From assembly GCA_025463135.1 (NCBI GenBank), contig JAOAPY010000010.1:62001-126000 (forward strand): DNA of 64,000 nucleotides. Reading direction: 5' to 3'. The notes under the pieces are model-generated. The model saw only the letters and a program-made list of their open reading frames with translations, ran no database searches and was not told where the DNA came from. How positions within the stretch are numbered: the first letter of the stretch is position 1; each line of letters starts with the position of its first letter. The position numbers and the translations under genes are program-made. The stretch comes from Acidobacteriota bacterium (GTDB taxonomy: Bacteria > Acidobacteriota > Blastocatellia > Pyrinomonadales > Pyrinomonadaceae). Shown here piece by piece: positions 2,868 through 64,000 of this stretch.

Positions 2868-3092
2868 GGGAGTTTTTAGGTCGGGATAATTTGAGTTGAA
2901 CTACGGATGAATGCGACCCAAGTCAAATGTGGCACGGATCGCTAACAAATTGTAACCTTTGTAAGGAAAACCTTGATGCCTGTAAACCGGGGTTTCGGAA
3001 TCGATCCAACTATTTTGACGGATTCTGCCAACGTGGCGAGGTAAAAATGAAAACGGACAACTATCGAATGGGCGCACTTTAGCACGAAGCCT

Positions 3093-4061
3093 ATGGCTGC
3101 GCAAGACCGAGACTCTGCATCAAAATTAAAACCTATGCTCGGCAAATTTCAAGTACTCGTGGTCGATGACAACTCGGATAAGCGGAACCTGCTCGAGGTA
3201 GCCTTGAGTATGGCAGGTTATGACGTGCGGGCCACGTCTAACGGCATTGAAGCGCTGGCGGCCGTCGAATCCTACCCACCGGATTTGATCGTGACCGATG
3301 TCATGATGCCCGAAATGGACGGCTATGAACTGGCCCGTCGTATTCGTCAGAACCCGCAAACCAGATTCATTCCCTTGATTCTGCAAACCGCCGGGCGTCA
3401 CGACGCCGACGATGTGCGCATGGGCGCCGAGGTGGGGGCGCTGGGTTTCATTACGGACCCCACGGACCTCGATCTATTGTTGGCCCGTGCGCGAACCCTG
3501 CTGGAGTTCAAGGCTTATCTCGATACCTGGCAGGAAGCCGCGTTCACGGATCACCTTAGCGGTCTGGCAAATCGCCGCCGTCTGGAACGCCAGTTGGAGC
3601 GCGAGATCGCACGCACTGAGCGCTTCGGCCATCCCTTTAGCCTGGTGATGCTGGACATTGATGAGTTTAAGAAGGTCAACGACACCTTCGGTCATGAAAT
3701 GGGGGATGAGGTAATCAAGTCCTTGGCCAAGACTCTGCAAGAAGGTATTCGCGGAATAGATCTGGCGGCGCGTATCGGCGGCGAAGAGTTTGCGGTGATT
3801 CTGACTGAGACCCCACTTGAAAGAGCCACTGAAGTGGCGGAACGTTTACGACTGGCCATCAAGGACGTCGAGCTTCCCGATGTTGGCTCTGTAACCGTGA
3901 GCCTCGGAGTTGCTGAGGCGCCTTTCTGTGCGCACACGGGGCGTGAGTTGTTAGCCTGCGCTGACACCGCGCTGTACGCTGCTAAAGATCTGGGACGTGA
4001 TCGCGTCGTGCGGGCTGACCGAGCTAAAGAGAACTCAGTGAGGACCGCTGACGTACAGTAA
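3093..4061 (+). CDS. response regulator with GGDEF domain (diguanylate cyclase)
   Basis: A receiver domain (about residues 19-138) is followed by a GGDEF domain (about 152-315). The receiver has the acidic pair D25/D26, phospho-acceptor D69 (VTDVMMPEMDG) and T99, but the lysine normally found in the TKP motif is Asp122 (ITDPTD). The cyclase active site is GGEEF (229-233), and RGID (220-223), five residues upstream, fits the RxxD product-inhibition site. It should make cyclic di-GMP from two GTP. The start could instead be Met15 at 3135. PilZ proteins at 13 kb are possible downstream receptors, but no direct link is visible. Confidence 0.92.
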   Translation: MAAQDRDSASKLKPMLGKFQVLVVDDNSDKRNLLEVALSMAGYDVRATSNGIEALAAVESYPPDLIVTDVMMPEMDGYELARRIRQNPQTRFIPLILQTAGRHDADDVRMGAEVGALGFITDPTDLDLLLARARTLLEFKAYLDTWQEAAFTDHLSGLANRRRLERQLEREIARTERFGHPFSLVMLDIDEFKKVNDTFGHEMGDEVIKSLAKTLQEGIRGIDLAARIGGEEFAVILTETPLERATEVAERLRLAIKDVELPDVGSVTVSLGVAEAPFCAHTGRELLACADTALYAAKDLGRDRVVRADRAKENSVRTADVQ

Positions 4062-4065
4062 AAAA

Positions 4066-4215
4066 GCGGGCTTTGATCTTTGGCTTTTGGTCTTTGGTTT
4101 TTGAGCTTTGTACTTTGTTCTTTGCTTTCCTTTCGAAGCTTGATGCGGAGTAGCGACAGACCTCGGCACCAAGAGAACAAAGTACAAAGCTCAAAGAACA
4201 AAAGAGTGAAGACCA
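4066..4215. repeat. imperfect inverted repeat of CTTTG/CAAAG words
   Basis: The gap after the diguanylate cyclase is built of ctttggtctttg-type words on the left and their complements (aacaaagtacaaagctcaaag) on the right, so the whole stretch can fold on itself. Similar words occur at 7080-7200 and 33140-33240. Confidence 0.7.
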
Positions 4216-4239
4216 AGGTACGTTGGTTTGGGGGTAAGG

Positions 4240-5193
4240 ATGGCTGATTACAAAGAAAAATTTGATGAACTGCATCGGGCGGCACGGCGCAAGGCTCAGG
4301 ATCTGGACGAGAAGTTTGCCATCAAGGATCTGGTCGGAGAAGGGGCTCGAATAGCCAGCGAAGCAGCTCGACGCGGAGCGGAAACTGTCGCCAGCGGCGC
4401 CGAGCGTCTGCGGACCGAGGCCGAACGGATGGGCGAGGATGGCCAGGTCCGTGACGCGACTGATCGGGCCGCGAAAGAAGCGCGCAAAGCCGGCGAAGCT
4501 CTGCGCAGCGCCGCGGGCAGTGCCGGGAAAAAGGCCGGCGAGGTATACGAGGACGCGAAAACCTACTATGAACGGGCTTCAAAGGTGTATGACACAAGTG
4601 CCCGCTTGACTCGAGCTTCGACTGCGGCGACCGCCGGTGTCTTAAAAGCCAAAGACTGGATCAAAGAAAATCCCGGCAAGGCGACAGTGGTCGGTTTTTC
4701 GCTGGTGCTGGGTGTGCGGCTGGGCTCGTCGCTGCCGGGCCTTGATGCAATTTTGCTGGGCTCGCATCCGCACTGGCTAACACACTCAGCCTTGCCCGTC
4801 CTGGGATTGAAAATGGCGAGTGACAAATTCGATAGCTATCTGCGCAAGCAGGAAGAGCTAATCGCCGCGGGTCAACTGACCGAGGCCGAACGTGAACGCG
4901 TTCAGTTTCAACGCAAGATAGCTAAGTACGTGGGCGCACCATTGTTGGGAGCTTTTAGTTGCGCCGCCGGCGCGGCAATGTTCGCGCAGATCGTTCAACC
5001 CGGCGCCATCACCGGCGCGCCGATCAGTTGGTTGCTGGGCGGCAATCCATTTCTCGACGGCGTCTGGCTGTTCGCGAATGGAGTTATCTGCTTTCACCAG
5101 GGTTACAAATTTTTTATGATCGCACTTGCGGATCAGGACGAAGTGAACCGCGTGGTGCGCGAGATCAAGGGACTGTTGCCCGCTGCGGTTTGA
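4240..5193 (+). CDS. membrane-anchored protein with long amphipathic helical N-terminus, function unknown
   Basis: I do not recognise this 317-residue protein. The first ~140 residues are rich in Ala, Arg, Glu and Lys in helix-favouring patterns (ARIASEAARRGAETVASGAE, AKEARKAGEALRSAAG), similar in style to apolipoprotein- or LEA-like amphipathic helices. The C-terminal half has hydrophobic stretches (TVVGFSLVLGVRLGSSL; APLLGAFSCAAGAAMFAQIV; FFMIALADQ) suggesting membrane insertion. The ATG at 4240 is preceded by a G-rich stretch; a TTG four codons earlier is also possible. It stands alone between repeat-filled gaps. Confidence 0.7.
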   Translation: MADYKEKFDELHRAARRKAQDLDEKFAIKDLVGEGARIASEAARRGAETVASGAERLRTEAERMGEDGQVRDATDRAAKEARKAGEALRSAAGSAGKKAGEVYEDAKTYYERASKVYDTSARLTRASTAATAGVLKAKDWIKENPGKATVVGFSLVLGVRLGSSLPGLDAILLGSHPHWLTHSALPVLGLKMASDKFDSYLRKQEELIAAGQLTEAERERVQFQRKIAKYVGAPLLGAFSCAAGAAMFAQIVQPGAITGAPISWLLGGNPFLDGVWLFANGVICFHQGYKFFMIALADQDEVNRVVREIKGLLPAAV

Positions 5194-5246
5194 TATTGGT
5201 TCGTTGCATCTCATTCATAACCTGACTTTCTGACTGCTTGTAATCC

Positions 5247-5410
5247 CATCTCATTCTCACCCGGTTTCAACCGGGTGATTGAGTTAGCTCGTGATCTCCG
5301 TAACCGTTTCAACGGTTTCTGATTTCCGGAGACAGGTAGACCATTGAAACGTTTTGGGAGATTTAGACAGCTGCTGATCACCCAGTTGAAACCGGCTGAG
5401 AATGAGATGA
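5247..5410. repeat. family B: 164-bp nested inverted repeat
   Basis: The element opens with CATCTCATTCTCACCCGG and closes with its complement ending GAGAATGAGATGA. Each end contains its own hairpin (CCGGTTTCAACCGG), and an inner pair (ACCGTTTCAACGGTTT and TTGAAACG) nests inside. A second copy of identical length is at 16281-16444, and a 100-bp internally deleted copy is at 52745-52844. Confidence 0.85.
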
Positions 5411-5435
5411 AGAACTTTTCAGGAGCGAGCGCTGA

Positions 5436-5484
5436 TTTTGCCACCAGGATTTTAGCCCCTCAATCTTATCCACTGAGCTAAGCC
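5436..5484 (-). other. possible tRNA-derived remnant or hairpin
   Basis: On the minus strand this stretch reads TTAGCTCAGTGGATAAGA, like a tRNA position 8 to D-arm, then GGGGCTAAAATCCTGG, which only loosely resembles an anticodon or T-arm. No complete cloverleaf or acceptor stem can be drawn. TTAGC and GCTAA could pair as a simple hairpin behind the site-2 protease gene. Confidence 0.25.
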
Positions 5485-5502
5485 TGAAGACTTACATCTT
5501 TC

Positions 5503-6525
5503 TCAAGTAATCGTGATCGGAAACGGCCAGAAGGAAAGTGCGAAGACAATCAGTGTGAGGATCGCGATCCAGATGCGCGTGGCGCCCAGGGGTTCCATAA
5601 CACGCGGCTGTGGATGCCGTACCCATAACATCACAGCCAACAGGACGGTGTACAAAAATCCGCTGGGGCTGCCATGCCAAAACCAGCCAAGAATGGCGAG
5701 CGCAGCCATACTCACAAACGCCAGCCGTCCAATCCACTGATGCGCCCGCCCGCCAAACAGCGCGAACGTTCCATGCCCGCCATCAAGTTGGCCCACCGGC
5801 ATAAGATTGAGACTCGTCACCAACAGTCCGATCCACGCTGCCATGTAACAGGGATTGGTCGGTGAATACGGATCGAGCCGCACGCTCAGCACACGAGCTA
5901 ACAACCGCAACAACAATGGGTCGTTAAAAAAGATCTCATGGCCCGAAGGCCGCAAGGGCGTTCCCATGCTCAAGATTCCGATGAACGCAATCGGCAATAA
6001 CGCAACGAAGCCGGCCAGAGGCCCGGCCAGACCGATATCAAACAGCGCCCGTCGCGTGGGGATGGGCGCCTTGATCTTGATGAACGCGCCAAACGTTCCC
6101 GCCAAAAAAAGCGGTGGTGCGGGAATGAAAAACGGCAGGGTGGCGTCAACTCCATAAAGGCGGCAGGCGACGTAGTGGCCCATCTCGTGCGCGAACAGAA
6201 TCGTCAGCAAAGCTCCGGAGAAAATTATTCCCTGGCCGAGGATGTGGGGATTTAACAGTGCGAAGTTGATCAGTAAGGCAATCGTTTGCAGGTAGTACTG
6301 AGGTACAAACAGTATCCAGCCAACCACCGAAGAAGGTTGAGCCAGATCGGGCTCGACATTGGGTGATGCTAAAACGATCCCCGCGATGACGGTGGTGATT
6401 ACGGTCAGCAGAAGCAGCAGCGAATGGCGCACCCATTCCCTGGTGGTCGGCCGCAAGGCCATGCTTCGTTGCCGCAGTGACTGCGTTTCCGCGAAGGGTG
6501 GTATTACTCGAACAGATTCTGCCAT
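5503..6525 (-). CDS. site-2 protease family (M50) intramembrane metalloprotease
   Basis: The 340-residue protein has the zinc motif HEMGH (113-117) inside a hydrophobic segment and the second M50 motif NLMPVGQLDGGH (240-251, Asp248 the likely third zinc ligand). Several other membrane spans surround them. This is the core of site-2 proteases, which cut membrane-spanning substrates, typically in regulated intramembrane proteolysis. No PDZ domain is visible between the two motifs, so it belongs to the short PDZ-less group. No anti-sigma factor or other obvious substrate gene is adjacent. Confidence 0.9.
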   Translation of the reverse strand: MAESVRVIPPFAETQSLRQRSMALRPTTREWVRHSLLLLLTVITTVIAGIVLASPNVEPDLAQPSSVVGWILFVPQYYLQTIALLINFALLNPHILGQGIIFSGALLTILFAHEMGHYVACRLYGVDATLPFFIPAPPLFLAGTFGAFIKIKAPIPTRRALFDIGLAGPLAGFVALLPIAFIGILSMGTPLRPSGHEIFFNDPLLLRLLARVLSVRLDPYSPTNPCYMAAWIGLLVTSLNLMPVGQLDGGHGTFALFGGRAHQWIGRLAFVSMAALAILGWFWHGSPSGFLYTVLLAVMLWVRHPQPRVMEPLGATRIWIAILTLIVFALSFWPFPITIT

Positions 6526-58970: not shown

Positions 58971-60662
58971 ATGACAAACGCTTCCCACGACAACAGCGAG
59001 TCAACTGATCTCTTGCTCGAAGTGGGCTCACTGGCTCGCCTGGCGCACACCGCCGAGGCTGTAGCAGCTACAACAAAGAAGCTCGAGAAGGCCGCTTTGC
59101 TGGGTGATTATTTCAAAGCCCTAAGCGATGCGGACCTCACCAGGGCGGCCCGATATTTCGCCGGCCATCAATTTGCACTCAACGATTCCCGGACTACTAA
59201 TGTTGGTGGCAGCATCATCAGCGACGCGCTGGCCCAGGCCACTGGTTTTAGCATGGAAGATCTGCTGCCCCGCTACGTGCGCCTGGGAGACGCCGGCGAG
59301 GCAGCTTATGAATTGGTCCTGGATGCCGGGCGCAATTATCAGCCTCCCACAATCACTCTCGCGGAAACCGAATCTCTCATAACGAGGTTGAGTGAGACTC
59401 GGGGCACAAAAAATAAAACCGGGTTGTTGACTACCTTGTTGCGACAGGCCACGCCACTCGAAGCCAAATATCTTGTGAAGCTGCTGGTTAGCGATCTGCG
59501 CATCGGCTTGAAAGAGGGACTTGTCGAAGATGCCATCGCGCGCGCTTTTAGTCAGCCCCTTGCCGCGATTTCTCATGCGAACATGTTGCTCGGTGATATC
59601 GGCGAGACCGCCGTTCGCGCGCGCGCCAACGACCTGGAAGACATCAGCATGCGGCTGTTTCATCCGCTCAAGTTCATGCTGGCCACGCCGGCTGCCGACC
59701 TCGCCGACATTACGCGAACGATGCCTGACGAATTCTTTGTGGAAGACAAGTTTGATGGAATTCGCGCTCAGGCGCACGTAAGCGGGGAACGGGTAGCCAT
59801 TTATTCGCGCACCATGGACGAGATCACTCACCGCTTCCCGGAGTTGACCGGCCCGCTGCGAGACCTGCCCGTTGACGCGATCATCGACGGTGAGATTGTT
59901 CCGGCCCTTGGCGACGTCATCCTGCCTTTCAGTGAGTTACAGAAGCGACTGGGCCGCAAGACTGTTAGCCAGGATCTCCTGGCTGAAGTTCCGGTGATCC
60001 TGGTTGCCTACGATCTCCTTTACGCCAATGGCCGAGTCTTAATCAATGAACCTCTCGATGCCCGCAGGCGGATGCTGGAAGATTTGATTGTTAAGGACGA
60101 AACACTCAAGTTGTCAAAAGCAACGCGTTTTCAGGAAGCGGCGGCGCTGGATGAAGAATTCGCGGCAGCACGGGCTCGCGGAAATGAGGGATTGATGATC
60201 AAGAGTCCGGCTTCGCACTATAAGCCGGGTAGACGAGGCCGAGAGTGGTTGAAACTAAAACGCGCGATTGCCACTCTCGATGTGGTGGTGACGGCCGTTG
60301 AGGTTGGTCATGGAAAGCGGCGCAACCTGCTTTCCGATTACACCTTCGCGGTCCGGCGCTCAGAAGATGACGGCGAACTCCTGAATATCGGCAAAGCTTA
60401 CTCTGGTTTGACGGACGCCGAATTAGCTGAAATGACTGAATGGTTCAAGGCGCATACACTCCAGCAATTTGCTCACGGACGCGTCCGCATCGTTGAGCCA
60501 ACGATCGTCATCGAAGTAACGTGTGATCGAATTCAAGAATCAAAGCGACACAAGAGTGGCTATGCCATGCGCTTTCCCCGGATTTTGCGACTGCGAGTAG
60601 ATAAAAACGCCGCGGAAATTGATACCTTGGCCACAGTTCGCAAGCTGGCAGCAAAAGTCTAG
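58971..60662 (+). CDS. lig: ATP-dependent DNA ligase
   Basis: The 563-residue protein has an N-terminal DNA-binding helical domain (KKLEKAALLGDYFKALSDAD), the adenylation domain with Lys260 in EDKFDGIRAQ, GEIVPALGDVILPFSELQKR and EGLMIKSPASHYKPGRRGREWLKLK-type motif V, and a C-terminal OB-fold with PTIVIEVTCDRIQESKRHKSG (here split). This full-length three-domain form resembles archaeal and eukaryotic ligase I more than bacterial LigD. It would seal nicks using ATP. The main replicative ligase of bacteria is the NAD-dependent LigA, so it may serve repair. Confidence 0.93.
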   Translation: MTNASHDNSESTDLLLEVGSLARLAHTAEAVAATTKKLEKAALLGDYFKALSDADLTRAARYFAGHQFALNDSRTTNVGGSIISDALAQATGFSMEDLLPRYVRLGDAGEAAYELVLDAGRNYQPPTITLAETESLITRLSETRGTKNKTGLLTTLLRQATPLEAKYLVKLLVSDLRIGLKEGLVEDAIARAFSQPLAAISHANMLLGDIGETAVRARANDLEDISMRLFHPLKFMLATPAADLADITRTMPDEFFVEDKFDGIRAQAHVSGERVAIYSRTMDEITHRFPELTGPLRDLPVDAIIDGEIVPALGDVILPFSELQKRLGRKTVSQDLLAEVPVILVAYDLLYANGRVLINEPLDARRRMLEDLIVKDETLKLSKATRFQEAAALDEEFAAARARGNEGLMIKSPASHYKPGRRGREWLKLKRAIATLDVVVTAVEVGHGKRRNLLSDYTFAVRRSEDDGELLNIGKAYSGLTDAELAEMTEWFKAHTLQQFAHGRVRIVEPTIVIEVTCDRIQESKRHKSGYAMRFPRILRLRVDKNAAEIDTLATVRKLAAKV

Positions 60663-60891: not shown

Positions 60892-61146
60892 TTAGTATAT
60901 CGACAGCATGCTGACCAGCACTTCGATTGTGGCCATTGCAGCATCAATAGCGGCAGGGGTCCAAGCGGTTCCGCTACAAGTAGAATTGGCTAACGTTCCG
61001 CCTGAAGTCGTTACGGCACATTGGGTTGACGTTGGAGTTGAAGGCGGGGTGGGAGCCGGGGGAGAATTCATCTCACCGGCCCACACGGGTACTCCGAGTA
61101 CCAGAGCCAGAACGATTGGGGCGAGCAACTTGCGAAAGTTTTCCAT
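60892..61146 (-). CDS. small secreted peptide precursor, divergent from a TPR/Fis regulator
   Basis: An 84-residue product with a clear signal peptide (FRKLLAPIVLALVLGVPVWA, cleavage after WAG or before GEMNSPP). The mature part (~61 residues) starts with a Pro/Thr/Ser-rich segment (GEMNSPPAPTPPSTPTSTQC), has two Cys and ends in a short hydrophobic helix (AAMATIEVLVSMLSIY). No family is recognised. The ATG has GGAG seven bases upstream, and a sigma70-like promoter precedes it. Its gene faces the TPR/HTH gene at 61287, which suggests that the regulator controls or senses the peptide. Confidence 0.7.
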   Translation of the reverse strand: MENFRKLLAPIVLALVLGVPVWAGEMNSPPAPTPPSTPTSTQCAVTTSGGTLANSTCSGTAWTPAAIDAAMATIEVLVSMLSIY

Positions 61147-61222
61147 GGTGGTCTCCTAAGAAGGATGTCTTTGATCAATTACAGGTGGACAGGCACGTCC
61201 AACCGAAATGCCGGGCGAGCGC

Positions 61223-61251
61223 ATAATACCCGCCTAACGAACGTCTTGCAA
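61223..61251 (-). promoter_or_regulatory. sigma70-type promoter of the secreted peptide gene
   Basis: On the minus strand TTGCAA (61246-61251) and TATTAT (61223-61228) are spaced by 17 bases, giving a leader of about 70 nt. In the leader, GGAC-aggcac-GTCC (61183-61201 region) is a small imperfect palindrome that could be an operator. Confidence 0.6.
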
Positions 61252-61286
61252 GAACCATTACACACGCTTACAAAGGATTCATATTC

Positions 61287-62855
61287 ATGAACTTACACGA
61301 CTTAATTTCAACAAAAGAGATTTCTGCGAACCTAAGTGGGGCGGCTCTCAGCCGTGATGAGGAAGTTCTAAACCGTTGCCTTAGGGCAAAACGGTACGAA
61401 GAGGCCGGTGACTATGAGGGTGCGCGCCAGGCCCTGGGGGATTGGTGGGAGCGTGTTGGTGAAACACCCAAGCTCGAGGGCTTAGGCGATCCGGCTCAGG
61501 CAGAGTTGTTGTTACGTGCTGGTTCCCTGTCGGGCAGGATCGGTAGTGCCAATCAGATCGAAGGGGCGCAAGAGATTGCAAAAGATCTGATCTCCCACAG
61601 CCACAGGATATTTGAAAAGCTGGAATTGGTCGAGAAGGTTGCGGAGACGCAGATTGACCTCGCGATCTGTTATTGGCGGGCCGGGGGTTTGGATGAAGCT
61701 CGCATAACTCTGCAAGAGACGCTCGACAAAATGAGCGATGGCGAAAGTGAGCAACGATTACGCGCTCTGGTGAGTATGGCGATCTTTGAGATCTCGGCGG
61801 CACGATACCGGGATGCGTTGCGCATTCAGATAGAATCCGCGCCCCTGTTCGAGCGCAGCAAGAATCATACGCTTAGAGGCATATTCCATAATGAGTATGC
61901 ACTGGCATTGCGGAACATTGGAGAAGCAGAATCAAGACCGGACTACAACGATCGTGCTTTGATCGAGTACACGGCTGCCGGTTACCACTTTGAACAGGCT
62001 GGTCACACTCGTTACCTGGCTTTGGTGGAAAACAATCTGGGATTTCTCTTTCTTAGATCGGGCAAGTTGATTGAGGCACATCAACACCTCAATCGCGCGC
62101 GCGCCCTGTTCGTGAAGCTCAAGGACAAAGGCAGCATTGCGCAAGTTGATGAAACTCGCGCGAGGGCCTTCCTGGCGCAGGGATCATATTCTCAAGCTGA
62201 AACGACGGTGAGCGGATCGGTGCGCACCCTGGAACAGGGTGATGAAAGCTCGCTTCTGGCGGAAGCCTTAACCACGCACGGACGGGCCCTGGCAAACTTG
62301 GAGCGCTTCGAGCGATCGCTCGGACAACTTAAGCGCGCGATTGCCGTAGCAGAGAAAGCCAGTGATCCGGAAAAGGCGGGTTTGGCGGCCCTGGCGATTG
62401 TGGAAGCACTGCCGGCCTATTTACCGCCGGTGGGGCTACGCGAATTCTACGGACAGGCGGAATCGCTTCTGGCTCAGTCACAAGCTCCCGGCGCCGAAGA
62501 TCGTTTAGGTCGTTGCGCGCGGGCGATACTTGCGCTCGGTGAGTCCCGCGGCGCTGGCTTAGGAAAAGCGGACGTGGCGGCCCTGGAAGACGGTGACGCG
62601 GGCGAAGCGCTGGAAGTGGTGGCTGCGAATCAGAAGTGGACCGGCTGTTCACTGGAGAATGAAGTGCTCCGCTATGAGGGTGAACTAATTCAACGAGCTC
62701 TCGAGACGGCGTCCGGAAGCGTAACCCGCGCGGCTCGAATGTTGGGAATTACACACCAGGGTCTCGCTTTTATCTTGAATGGACGGCATCGAACTCTATT
62801 GACTGTAAGAACGCCAGTCCGAAGGCGACGAAAAAGCATTTTCCGACCACAGTAA
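61287..62855 (+). CDS. TPR-repeat regulator with C-terminal Fis-type HTH
   Basis: The 522-residue protein is mostly TPR-like helical repeats (about 30-400; AKRYEEAGDYEGARQALGDW; AICYWRAGGLDEARITLQET; NNLGFLFLRSGKLIEAHQHL). The end (463-505) is a Fis/HTH_8-type helix-turn-helix (LIQRALETASGSVTRAARML; GITHQGLAFILNGRHRTLL) and then a basic tail (VRRRRKSIFRPQ). No sigma54-interaction or receiver domain is present, so it is not a classical NtrC protein. TPR plus HTH recalls peptide-sensing RRNPP regulators, with the order reversed. AAAGGA lies nine bases before the ATG. The secreted-peptide gene is divergent from it. Confidence 0.82.
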   Translation: MNLHDLISTKEISANLSGAALSRDEEVLNRCLRAKRYEEAGDYEGARQALGDWWERVGETPKLEGLGDPAQAELLLRAGSLSGRIGSANQIEGAQEIAKDLISHSHRIFEKLELVEKVAETQIDLAICYWRAGGLDEARITLQETLDKMSDGESEQRLRALVSMAIFEISAARYRDALRIQIESAPLFERSKNHTLRGIFHNEYALALRNIGEAESRPDYNDRALIEYTAAGYHFEQAGHTRYLALVENNLGFLFLRSGKLIEAHQHLNRARALFVKLKDKGSIAQVDETRARAFLAQGSYSQAETTVSGSVRTLEQGDESSLLAEALTTHGRALANLERFERSLGQLKRAIAVAEKASDPEKAGLAALAIVEALPAYLPPVGLREFYGQAESLLAQSQAPGAEDRLGRCARAILALGESRGAGLGKADVAALEDGDAGEALEVVAANQKWTGCSLENEVLRYEGELIQRALETASGSVTRAARMLGITHQGLAFILNGRHRTLLTVRTPVRRRRKSIFRPQ

Positions 62856-62950: not shown

Positions 62951-63032
62951 GCGTTTGTCCTCTAAAGGCGGCATCAAATATCATGCGCCATGCAGTTTAT
63001 CTAAATTCCCCAAGCTAAGAGGAATGAGTTTC

Positions 63033-64000
63033 ATGAAGTATTTGACCTTAGTTATGACAGTCGTTTTGCTATTGGTATCCACCGGCAGCGTGACGGCGCA
63101 GACGGCGCGCAAGAGAACGACGGCGAGACCTCAGCCCGTAACCAAAGCGGTTGTCACGCAACCGGCCGTTGAATTGGAAGCACAGCCCACCGCGGCGGTA
63201 ACGCCCACCATCGTACCTTTGGACACGACCATCCCAGCGTCGCTCGCGATCTTGAATGGTCAGACCGTCACAGTTTCTGATCTCAACCCTCAGGTTGCAG
63301 AGGGGATTGGCAAGCTGGGAGAAAAGGTCGGCCAGGCGCGCAGTCAGATTCTTGAACTTCAAATCAACACGATGTTGCTTGATATTGAAGCAAAGAAACG
63401 AAAGCTGACATCCCAACAGGTCTATGAGTCGGAAGTAGCAAAACGCATCACCGATCCGACTGAGGCTGAGATCGCAAAGTTGCTTGACGCCAATCGCGCC
63501 AATCTTGCTGATAGCGATCCCAAAACGCTTCACGCCGATGCGATTGCCTACATAAAAAGCCAACAGGAGCAAAAGCTTTCGGAGGATCTGATTCGGCGAG
63601 CGAAGATTGGTAACCCGGTAGTCATGGGAGTCGACATCAACAGCCCGGATCTAAAGGCGACCGCGGTTCTGGCGACCGTCGGTGGACAACCAATCACGGC
63701 AGCTAGCCTGACAGAGAGACTGAAACCGATCATTTACCGCTTGCGGCTAAACGCCTACCAGGTTACCAGTCAGGCGCTGCAGCAAACGATTAACGATCTG
63801 CTCTTGCTGGCTGAAGCAAAGCGCCTCAACATGCCGCCTGAGAATTTTATTCGGACTGAAGTAACTGACAAAGTTCACACGCCAACCGATGCCGAAGTTG
63901 AGAAGTTCTACAACGAAAATAAAGCTCGCATTCCCGGGGATTTGGCGAGCGTTAAAAATTCGATCGCCGCATTTTTGAGAGAAAAGCAGGGACAGGTTTT
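63033..64000 (+). CDS. exported SurA-like protein, N-terminal part (cut by window end)
   Basis: The frame stays open to the end of the window (322 codons seen). A signal peptide (KYLTLVMTVVLLLVSTGSVT, cleavage after AQ) is followed by a Thr/Pro-rich linker and two SurA-N-like segments (SQILELQINTMLLDIEAKKR; LQQTINDLLLLAEAKRLNMP), each preceded by a short strand like LAILNGQTVTVSDL and LATVGGQPITAASLT. In related proteins I recall from this phylum a thioredoxin/DsbA domain follows; this cannot be seen here. ATG 63033 has GAGGA ten bases upstream; ATG 63024 is also in frame. Confidence 0.75.
   Translation, partial: MKYLTLVMTVVLLLVSTGSVTAQTARKRTTARPQPVTKAVVTQPAVELEAQPTAAVTPTIVPLDTTIPASLAILNGQTVTVSDLNPQVAEGIGKLGEKVGQARSQILELQINTMLLDIEAKKRKLTSQQVYESEVAKRITDPTEAEIAKLLDANRANLADSDPKTLHADAIAYIKSQQEQKLSEDLIRRAKIGNPVVMGVDINSPDLKATAVLATVGGQPITAASLTERLKPIIYRLRLNAYQVTSQALQQTINDLLLLAEAKRLNMPPENFIRTEVTDKVHTPTDAEVEKFYNENKARIPGDLASVKNSIAAFLREKQGQV

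Follow-up and report, generated by a model that had tools for sequence, protein, structure and literature searches.

A divergent pair of peptide and TPR regulator genes

The window analyzed here, 64 kb of DNA from an Acidobacteriota bacterium (contig JAOAPY010000010.1), contains near its end two divergent genes, a peptide gene on the minus strand (60892-61146) and a regulator gene on the plus strand (61287-62855), whose start codons are separated by 140 bp (61147-61286). The initial annotation had described a small exported peptide gene facing, across this distance, a tetratricopeptide repeat (TPR) protein with a C-terminal Fis-type helix-turn-helix (HTH) domain, and both open reading frames (ORFs) were recovered at these positions. 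We examined the pair and its relatives as a candidate peptide signalling module. The features of the locus are as follows.

60892-61146, minus strand: propeptide gene, 84 aa; ORF, matched by its own family profile (G000:C2:122904-123146, E 1.3e-16, the sequence being one of the profile's 54 rows)
61078-61146, minus strand: predicted Sec signal peptide, residues 1-23, cut between VWA and GEM (sequence pattern, hydropathy heuristic)
61060-61077, minus strand: GEMNSP, the predicted N-terminal hexapeptide of the mature part, where the relatives have their G-[DE]-[IM]-x-[TS]-[PG] motif
60898-60957, minus strand: hydrophobic C-terminal helix, residues 64-83 (low-confidence AlphaFold model; the relatives' C-termini are similarly hydrophobic)
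61147-61286, no strand: intergenic control region, 140 bp, aligned with four orthologues
61245-61252, no strand: palindrome CTTGCAAG, operator candidate overlapping the -35 element of the peptide gene (enriched octamer, kept in four orthologues)
61223-61251, minus strand: sigma70-like promoter of the peptide gene, TTGCAA-17-TATTAT, conserved in four orthologues
61153-61157, minus strand: Shine-Dalgarno sequence AGGAG of the peptide gene (from the sequence)
61287-62855, plus strand: TPR-HTH_8 regulator, 522 aa, putative peptide receptor (ORF, Pfam, family membership)
61344-62546, plus strand: N-terminal TPR superhelix, about residues 20-420, the family-wide part (AlphaFold; TPR_12 in relatives)
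62676-62765, plus strand: C-terminal Fis-type HTH (HTH_8, residues 464-493; Pfam, 7.5e-07)

The peptide, which reads MENFRKLLAPIVLALVLGVPVWA up to the likely cleavage site and GEMNSPPAPTPP...VLVSMLSIY after it, has a basic N-terminus, a hydrophobic core, a Pro-rich stretch, two Cys and a hydrophobic C-terminus. Its AlphaFold model places helices at residues 4-22 and 64-83 with low confidence (mean predicted local distance difference test, pLDDT, 61.4). The peptides of the family have a median length of 79 aa, and in most of them G-[DE]-[IM]-x-[TS]-[PG]-like residues lie at the predicted cleavage site. Signal peptides were called by a heuristic combining hydropathy and small residues, and mature starts were set by a rule favoring G, D or E at position +1, which biases the start and not the recurrence described below. 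NSPP-type peptides beside such regulators, which the initial annotation had mentioned, do exist (GETSSPPC, SETNSPPC and GEVNSPPC). As a single query, the window peptide matched its paralogues weakly. A PHR-type identity was rejected for the peptide of one relative (L022), whose match to NCBIfam PhrK reached 19.2 bits at a cutoff of 35 and was probably driven by the signal peptide.

In the regulator, Pfam identified TPR_12 (1.9e-14) and the HTH_8 domain, with the sensor part N-terminal and the output C-terminal; all other matches were TPR-type or under their cutoffs. The AlphaFold model, built from 25 sequences, shows an uninterrupted TPR superhelix and, set apart from it, the C-terminal HTH (mean pLDDT 87.3; 376 of 522 residues at pLDDT >=90).

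Pairing across the family

The association of the two genes was counted in a main set drawn from the matches listed: 127 distinct regulators, complete at the N-terminus, scoring at least 200 bits and preceded by at least 450 nt of sequence. The window pair and its four paralogues belong to this set; the named duplicates L055-L083 do not, and two further regulators with too little upstream sequence were not counted. A regulator was scored as paired when an ORF 40-520 nt away was divergent, encoded 48-100 aa and showed a signal-peptide pattern. By this rule, 117 of the 127 regulators had a divergent exported small ORF (median distance 152), compared to 4 of 128 other large ORFs in the same loci, none of which looked family-like by eye. 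Inspection by hand showed a peptide at L043 too, a locus truncated by a contig end, bringing the count to 118/127. A looser count gave 118/127 as well, but with false peptides at L128 and L166 and without L043 and L045. Fifteen more listed rows yielded an added set of 12 countable regulators, 10 of them paired. With both sets together under the strict rule, 127/139 regulators were paired versus 4/128 control ORFs. The pairing is far beyond chance, and the expectation fixed beforehand, that homologous regulators would mostly have a neighboring divergent peptide gene, was borne out. In a more distant clade of the same TPR domain (L184-L211), 25 of 28 members were paired, typically with a peptide of the form GDMGTGGKTC...C, and one of the misses, L203, has a weak peptide-profile match next to it (E 0.026).

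The reverse test used a profile of 54 peptides, which gave 69 matches at E <= 1e-6 in 20 chosen genomes, the best at E 1.2e-24. By hand count against the regulator places, 64 of the 69 lay at regulators (59 adjacent, 5 second or third peptides), four were not adjacent, including one that forms part of a 197-aa ORF, and one was at a contig edge.

The peptide statistics (repeats, outputs, dN/dS, Mantel, codons and intergenic motifs) refer to the main set. The ratio of nonsynonymous to synonymous substitution rates (dN/dS) ranged from 0.10 to 0.74 in 57 ratios from 58 pairs (one saturated), indicating purifying selection on the peptide frame and its conservation at the protein level; these pairs, like the Mantel rows, are not independent, and 37 of the 58 fall within one genus (g19). 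That the peptide is an ORF artefact or a chance neighbor can scarcely be entertained: a promoter match that is by itself at chance level would suit such a view, but the contrast between regulators and control ORFs, the dN/dS ratios and the E values of the profile matches do not.

Several loci depart from the one-to-one arrangement. Peptides without a recognizable neighboring regulator were seen at L298 (2982-3252), L299 (3401-3815), L301 (3559-3895), L307 (3038-3329) and L311 (2930-3230); the last carries a GDGIIIAGF-type repeat, and its genome (G056) had no TPR-family match in the class search. L300 has three tandem related propeptides (3373-4399; DMPAVNPAP, DIPGVDSA and EMPTVEPAP types) and one regulator (4453-5968), resembling RRNPPA loci that carry several propeptide genes. 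The peptide-less regulators L151, L163, L174 and L090 share, by eye, an upstream codirectional gene, which in L151 encodes a PCRF domain (peptide chain release factor); these regulators may listen without emitting a signal themselves.

Repeated motifs in the peptide precursors

The first mature hexamer recurred at >=5/6 identity in 47 of the 117 precursors, exactly in 27. Mean best hexamer identity, 3.65, exceeded both the 2.01 obtained when the same peptide was shuffled and the 2.21 for other peptides; the shuffle p was <= 0.01 in 59 of the 117. Repeat copies averaged 4.4 in five pairs with a histidine kinase plus receiver, 3 in one with a histidine kinase and 1.6-1.8 elsewhere, so that the kinase-linked peptides were the richest. 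Multi-copy precursors include those of L045 (GNITSRT) and L147 (GDLGTD). The 47 repeat precursors contain 69 neighboring copy pairs, which provide 372 codon pairs for identical residues. Silent differences were found in 165 of these, and 207 were the same versus 129 expected from random codon use, indicating that many copies are old with their amino acids kept and that some are recent. We claim no dN/dS between copies because these were picked by amino-acid likeness.

The repeats bear on the possibility that the regulator binds the unexported propeptide in the cytoplasm and reports Sec load or envelope state, with no signal between cells. Such a scheme would do without import, the cell that makes the precursor also makes the receptor, and a gene with SurA_N and DSBA domains follows the pair in the window's genome, the one genome inspected for this neighbor. 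The repeated motif, however, starts at the predicted cleavage site (itself chosen by rule), which points to use after cleavage, and we regard sensing of the precursor as very unlikely.

One TPR domain with exchanged outputs

Among 87 members analyzed with Pfam, TPR_12 was found in 87, HTH_8 in 51, Response_reg in 22 and Sigma54_activat in 10, and the family members listed span 360-889 aa. Motif-based sorting of the 117 pairs gave HTH or other outputs in 60, receiver in 35, AAA+ in 16 and histidine kinase in 6; the GAFTGA-like loop expected of NtrC-type sigma-54 regulators was matched, as a strict pattern, in 3 of the 16 AAA+ members. A TPR-only protein of 360 aa (L185) is also paired with a peptide, and L186 and L187 are similarly short. 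The N-terminal TPR domain is thus the constant partner, and the outputs (HTH_8, HTH/receiver, AAA+, hybrid histidine kinase or TPR only) are exchanged. At L308, a peptide with a repeated GPTEIPG (3065-3434) adjoins a 912-aa protein (3764-6500) that scores no more than about 100 bits against the TPR profile and may represent another class of receptor.

These outputs are relevant to an alternative in which the cell exports the peptide as an effector (a surface, structural or antimicrobial peptide) and the TPR protein controls its expression while sensing something else. The palindrome in the shared region would suit such simple control, the hydrophobic C-terminal helix could act at membranes, and the four peptide-profile matches away from regulators, including that within the 197-aa ORF, would fit as well. 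What an effector leaves unexplained is that histidine-kinase and TPR-only members, which have no recognized DNA-binding domain, keep the pairing, and that the repeated motif differs between paralogues yet is kept within a precursor. Because of the kinase and TPR-only members, sensing appears to account for the pairing better than would a role confined to controlling the peptide gene, and we consider the effector reading unlikely.

The shared control region

The initial annotation had credited the peptide gene with a good sigma70-like promoter. TTGCAA-17-TATTAT (61251-61223) scores 9/12, which taken alone is at chance level (2 found versus 1.1 expected), but four orthologues keep TTGCAA, 17 bp and TATGAT at the same place. 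The palindrome CTTGCAAG occurred in 29 of 115 intergenic regions versus 0.6-0.85 in dinucleotide shuffles, a count inflated by related loci (2 of the 117 regions, at 54 and 502 bp, were too short or too long to be included). By output, it was present in 22/59 HTH, 6/16 AAA+, 1/35 receiver and 0/5 kinase regions, and we therefore rejected it as an operator common to all classes. In 12 of the 29 regions a hexamer with 5/6 identity to TATAAT lies 17 bp after TTGCAA. Thirteen regions have two or more sites with at most one mismatch to CTTGCAAG, and 9 of 12 spacings within 40 bp are 10-12 bp. The window as a whole contains one CTTGCAAG copy in 64 kb, with 1.49 expected by chance, so the evidence is its place and not its number; the arrangement of palindrome and -10 element occurs once in the genome and is kept by the four orthologues.

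We read CTTGCAAG as a candidate operator by which DNA-binding members may control the peptide gene, probably as a feedback loop; it could instead be an unusual -35 element. Several other enriched octamers are read as ribosome-binding sites, AGGAGA for the peptide (65 of 115 regions versus 5.0 in shuffles) and AGAAAGG for the regulator. Upstream of the peptide start, the leaders of L103, L106, L108, L109, L110, L117, L126 and L146 carry two inverted repeats, CCTATC..GATAGG and AAACCAG..CTGGTTT. They show little covariation, are mainly from one genus and hold some of the octamers enriched in the receiver class; they are candidate operator dyads or RNA hairpins. The RNA fold of the window's own 5' leader was unremarkable.

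Distribution and paralogues

Of 119 genomes belonging to the same family (f1), 62 were matched at E <= 1e-20 by a profile built from the five TPR domains of the window's genome; each had 1-9 matches, where a split gene can count twice. Named relatives are records of Pyrinomonadaceae, Acidobacteria/Acidobacteriota and Blastocatellia. When a 45-row profile was searched against 162 class and 396 phylum genomes (scoring the best 12 candidates per genome in the class and the best 4 in the phylum), the best listed match outside f1 had 115.2 bits (E 3.1e-33), compared to at least 198.5 bits for full-length f1 members among the matches listed and 180 for L302, which is paired but partly matched. Within the limits of these searches, the family appears confined to the f1 group. 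In 20 generic-TPR loci, mostly from other families of the phylum (L248-L267), the best peptide-profile E was 0.34 and nothing credible was found, although these loci may stop short of the protein start.

The window's genome (G000) has four further copies of the TPR domain, each with a divergent small exported peptide, on contigs C40, C33 (twice) and C37. The C40 copy and the second C33 copy (the latter by alignment) are TPR-receiver proteins with an HTH-like stretch, the first C33 copy is a TPR-HTH protein cut by the contig end, and the C37 copy is a TPR-histidine kinase-receiver. The C40 and C33 peptides share a plan of signal peptide, G-D-I-x-I-G-K, Pro-rich linker and a C-terminus like NLLQSILSVF, and the kinase-linked C37 peptide is a tandem array, GNITVSSNGNITVSSNGNITV. 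A TPR-HTH paralogue of this genome is apparently split over the contig ends C33 and C3 (L021 1-1389, L023 3-248). As the paralogues carry the same sensor with other outputs, one cell would run several separate channels.

Evidence for and against peptide sensing

Comparative genomics, the fold match and the promoter motif lead us to infer that the TPR protein senses the peptide. Structural alignment related the TPR model to Rap with pheromones, RapF with an inhibitory peptide, Rap with CSF, NprR and AimR, with Z scores of 21-30 covering most of those chains, and distances between peptides correlated with those between TPR domains (r 0.65). By sequence, the nearest solved proteins were designed TPRs and kinesin light chains.

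A number of observations weigh against peptide sensing or against the mature hexamer as the signal. Other TPR proteins align equally well (APPBP2, Z 30.9; an APC/C subunit, 29.7; MalT, 26.9) and Foldseek puts eukaryotic TPR proteins first, with Rap at rank 29; as unrelated TPR proteins score alike, the modelled fold is consistent with peptide sensing without proving it. Nine main-set regulators (L090, L128, L142, L151, L163, L166, L174, L180 and L182) and 2 of the 12 in the added set have no peptide (one of these two sits inside a longer open frame, so that its start is unsure), and at least three peptides have no neighboring regulator. The window's own peptide has no repeat (2/6 identities, p 0.665), and conservation of the mature hexamer (0.559) is barely above that of other regions (0.489-0.538). 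No sigma-54 promoter (-24/-12 at >=9/12) was found upstream of the AAA+-paired peptides (0/16; peptide upstream regions only). The importer domain PF00496 is present in 119/119 genomes, with or without the peptide-TPR system, and is therefore uninformative as a marker. Finally, correlation with TPR distance was r 0.19 for the hexamer and r 0.52 for the C-terminal 18 residues, which suggests that the signal could be the C-terminus.

In SHP and cCF10-type pheromones, the hydrophobic C-terminal end is the signal. A system that is otherwise the same and uses the hydrophobic C-terminal end in this way is a variant of the signalling proposal, with which its probability overlaps, and we give it a minor share. 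Besides the distance correlation, the usual C-terminal position of mature RRNPP peptides favors it (PMC10075063). Paralogue C-termini in one genome are alike, though (NLLQSILSVF and NLLQNLLSAF), which would lead to cross-talk, and the repeats concern the N-terminal motif.

Taken together, we consider it probable that the gene pair is a peptide signalling module, in which an exported, processed and re-imported peptide binds the TPR domain and switches the output. The small gene would encode a propeptide exported by Sec, and the signal peptidase cut would uncover a short sequence of the type G-x-[I/M]-x-[T/S]-[G/P], in one or several copies per precursor, which after further trimming would be the signal. 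Back in the cytoplasm, which it would probably reach via an oligopeptide ABC importer, the peptide would be bound by the divergently encoded protein at its N-terminal TPR superhelix. This would switch the C-terminal output, in the window a Fis-type HTH whose targets would include the intergenic region between the two genes, with CTTGCAAG at the -35 of the peptide gene, and presumably other sites. Export, processing, import, binding, the direction of regulation and the signal part of the peptide are all postulates of this model.

Comparison with known systems

In the sources consulted, descriptions of cytoplasmic TPR receptors paired with exported peptides concern Gram-positive bacteria and their phages, and searches of open-access PMC papers turned up no account of such a family in Acidobacteriota. 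RRNPP/RRNPPA systems are described by propeptides of 10-100 aa, Sec export, receptors of 250-500 aa with TPRs and adjacent genes (PMC10075063), with the TPR region C-terminal and an HTH or 3-helix bundle N-terminal (PMC10075063, PMC9765709). In these systems the mature peptide is bound by the TPRs, and an oligopeptide permease brings the signal back into the cell. Like Rap-Phr, NprR-NprX, PlcR-PapR and AimR-arbitrium, the family has a small, putatively exported propeptide (84 aa in the window, median within the same range) adjoining a protein with TPRs (TPR_12 in every member analyzed) and a TPR superhelix of similar shape, albeit one that unrelated TPR proteins equal. It differs in that the window regulator exceeds the length range at 522 aa, that the TPR region is N-terminal and the output C-terminal, as the initial annotation had remarked of the HTH, and that the named relatives are Acidobacteriota records rather than Firmicutes or their phages and plasmids. 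The pair is divergent, the outputs are Fis-type HTH, receiver, AAA+ or histidine kinase, and the repeat stands at the N-terminus of the mature part. Owing to receptor length and domain order, the family was not filed as RRNPP. Most likely, it is RRNPP-like peptide signalling in an inverted design. The published use of RRNPP_detector covered Firmicutes and viruses, with N-terminal-TPR clusters being discarded (PMC10075063). Multi-copy propeptides are known in RRNPPA, where tandemly duplicated propeptides hold several signal copies per precursor, as here (PMC9765709, PMC11343458), but those systems differ in precursor design, outputs and phylum.

Two other types of regulator invite comparison. 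MalT/AfsR-type regulators likewise join a TPR region to a DNA-binding output (the MalT alignment above concerns domain III), and the AfsR profile was far under its cutoff. They are STAND/SARP proteins with NTPase parts, and we know of no peptide partner for them. PipR of Pseudomonas GM79 is a Gram-negative regulator whose response requires an ABC peptide transporter (PMC4981722); it belongs to the LuxR family, its signal comes from leaf macerates, hydrolysates or a tripeptide, and the abstract names no dedicated propeptide.

Whether a peptide-pheromone system evolved separately in Acidobacteriota, with one TPR receptor domain, at least five outputs, and up to about nine private channels per genome, each having its own, often multi-copy peptide code, is in our estimate an evenly balanced question. 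If the family works as proposed, many peptide channels would operate side by side in a common group of soil bacteria that is still poorly understood. The repeated motifs are ready-made candidate signals (as synthetic hexa- to nonapeptides), and the exchanged outputs on one sensor domain make ligand-receptor specificity testable.

Neighboring genes

On one side, the pair is flanked by an ATP-dependent DNA ligase gene (58971-60662; Pfam DNA_ligase_A_M, 5.4e-46), and the closest relatives (L055-L058) have, as judged by eye, the same ligase ORF upstream. On the other side, an exported protein with SurA_N_3, Rotamase_2 and DSBA/Thioredoxin_4 domains is encoded downstream of the regulator (62955-64000), running on in L024 to 6096. 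Beyond it, at 6196-6774 of L024, lies an AhpC-TSA-type ORF on the opposite strand, apparently split. These neighbors make an envelope or redox function beside the pair possible.

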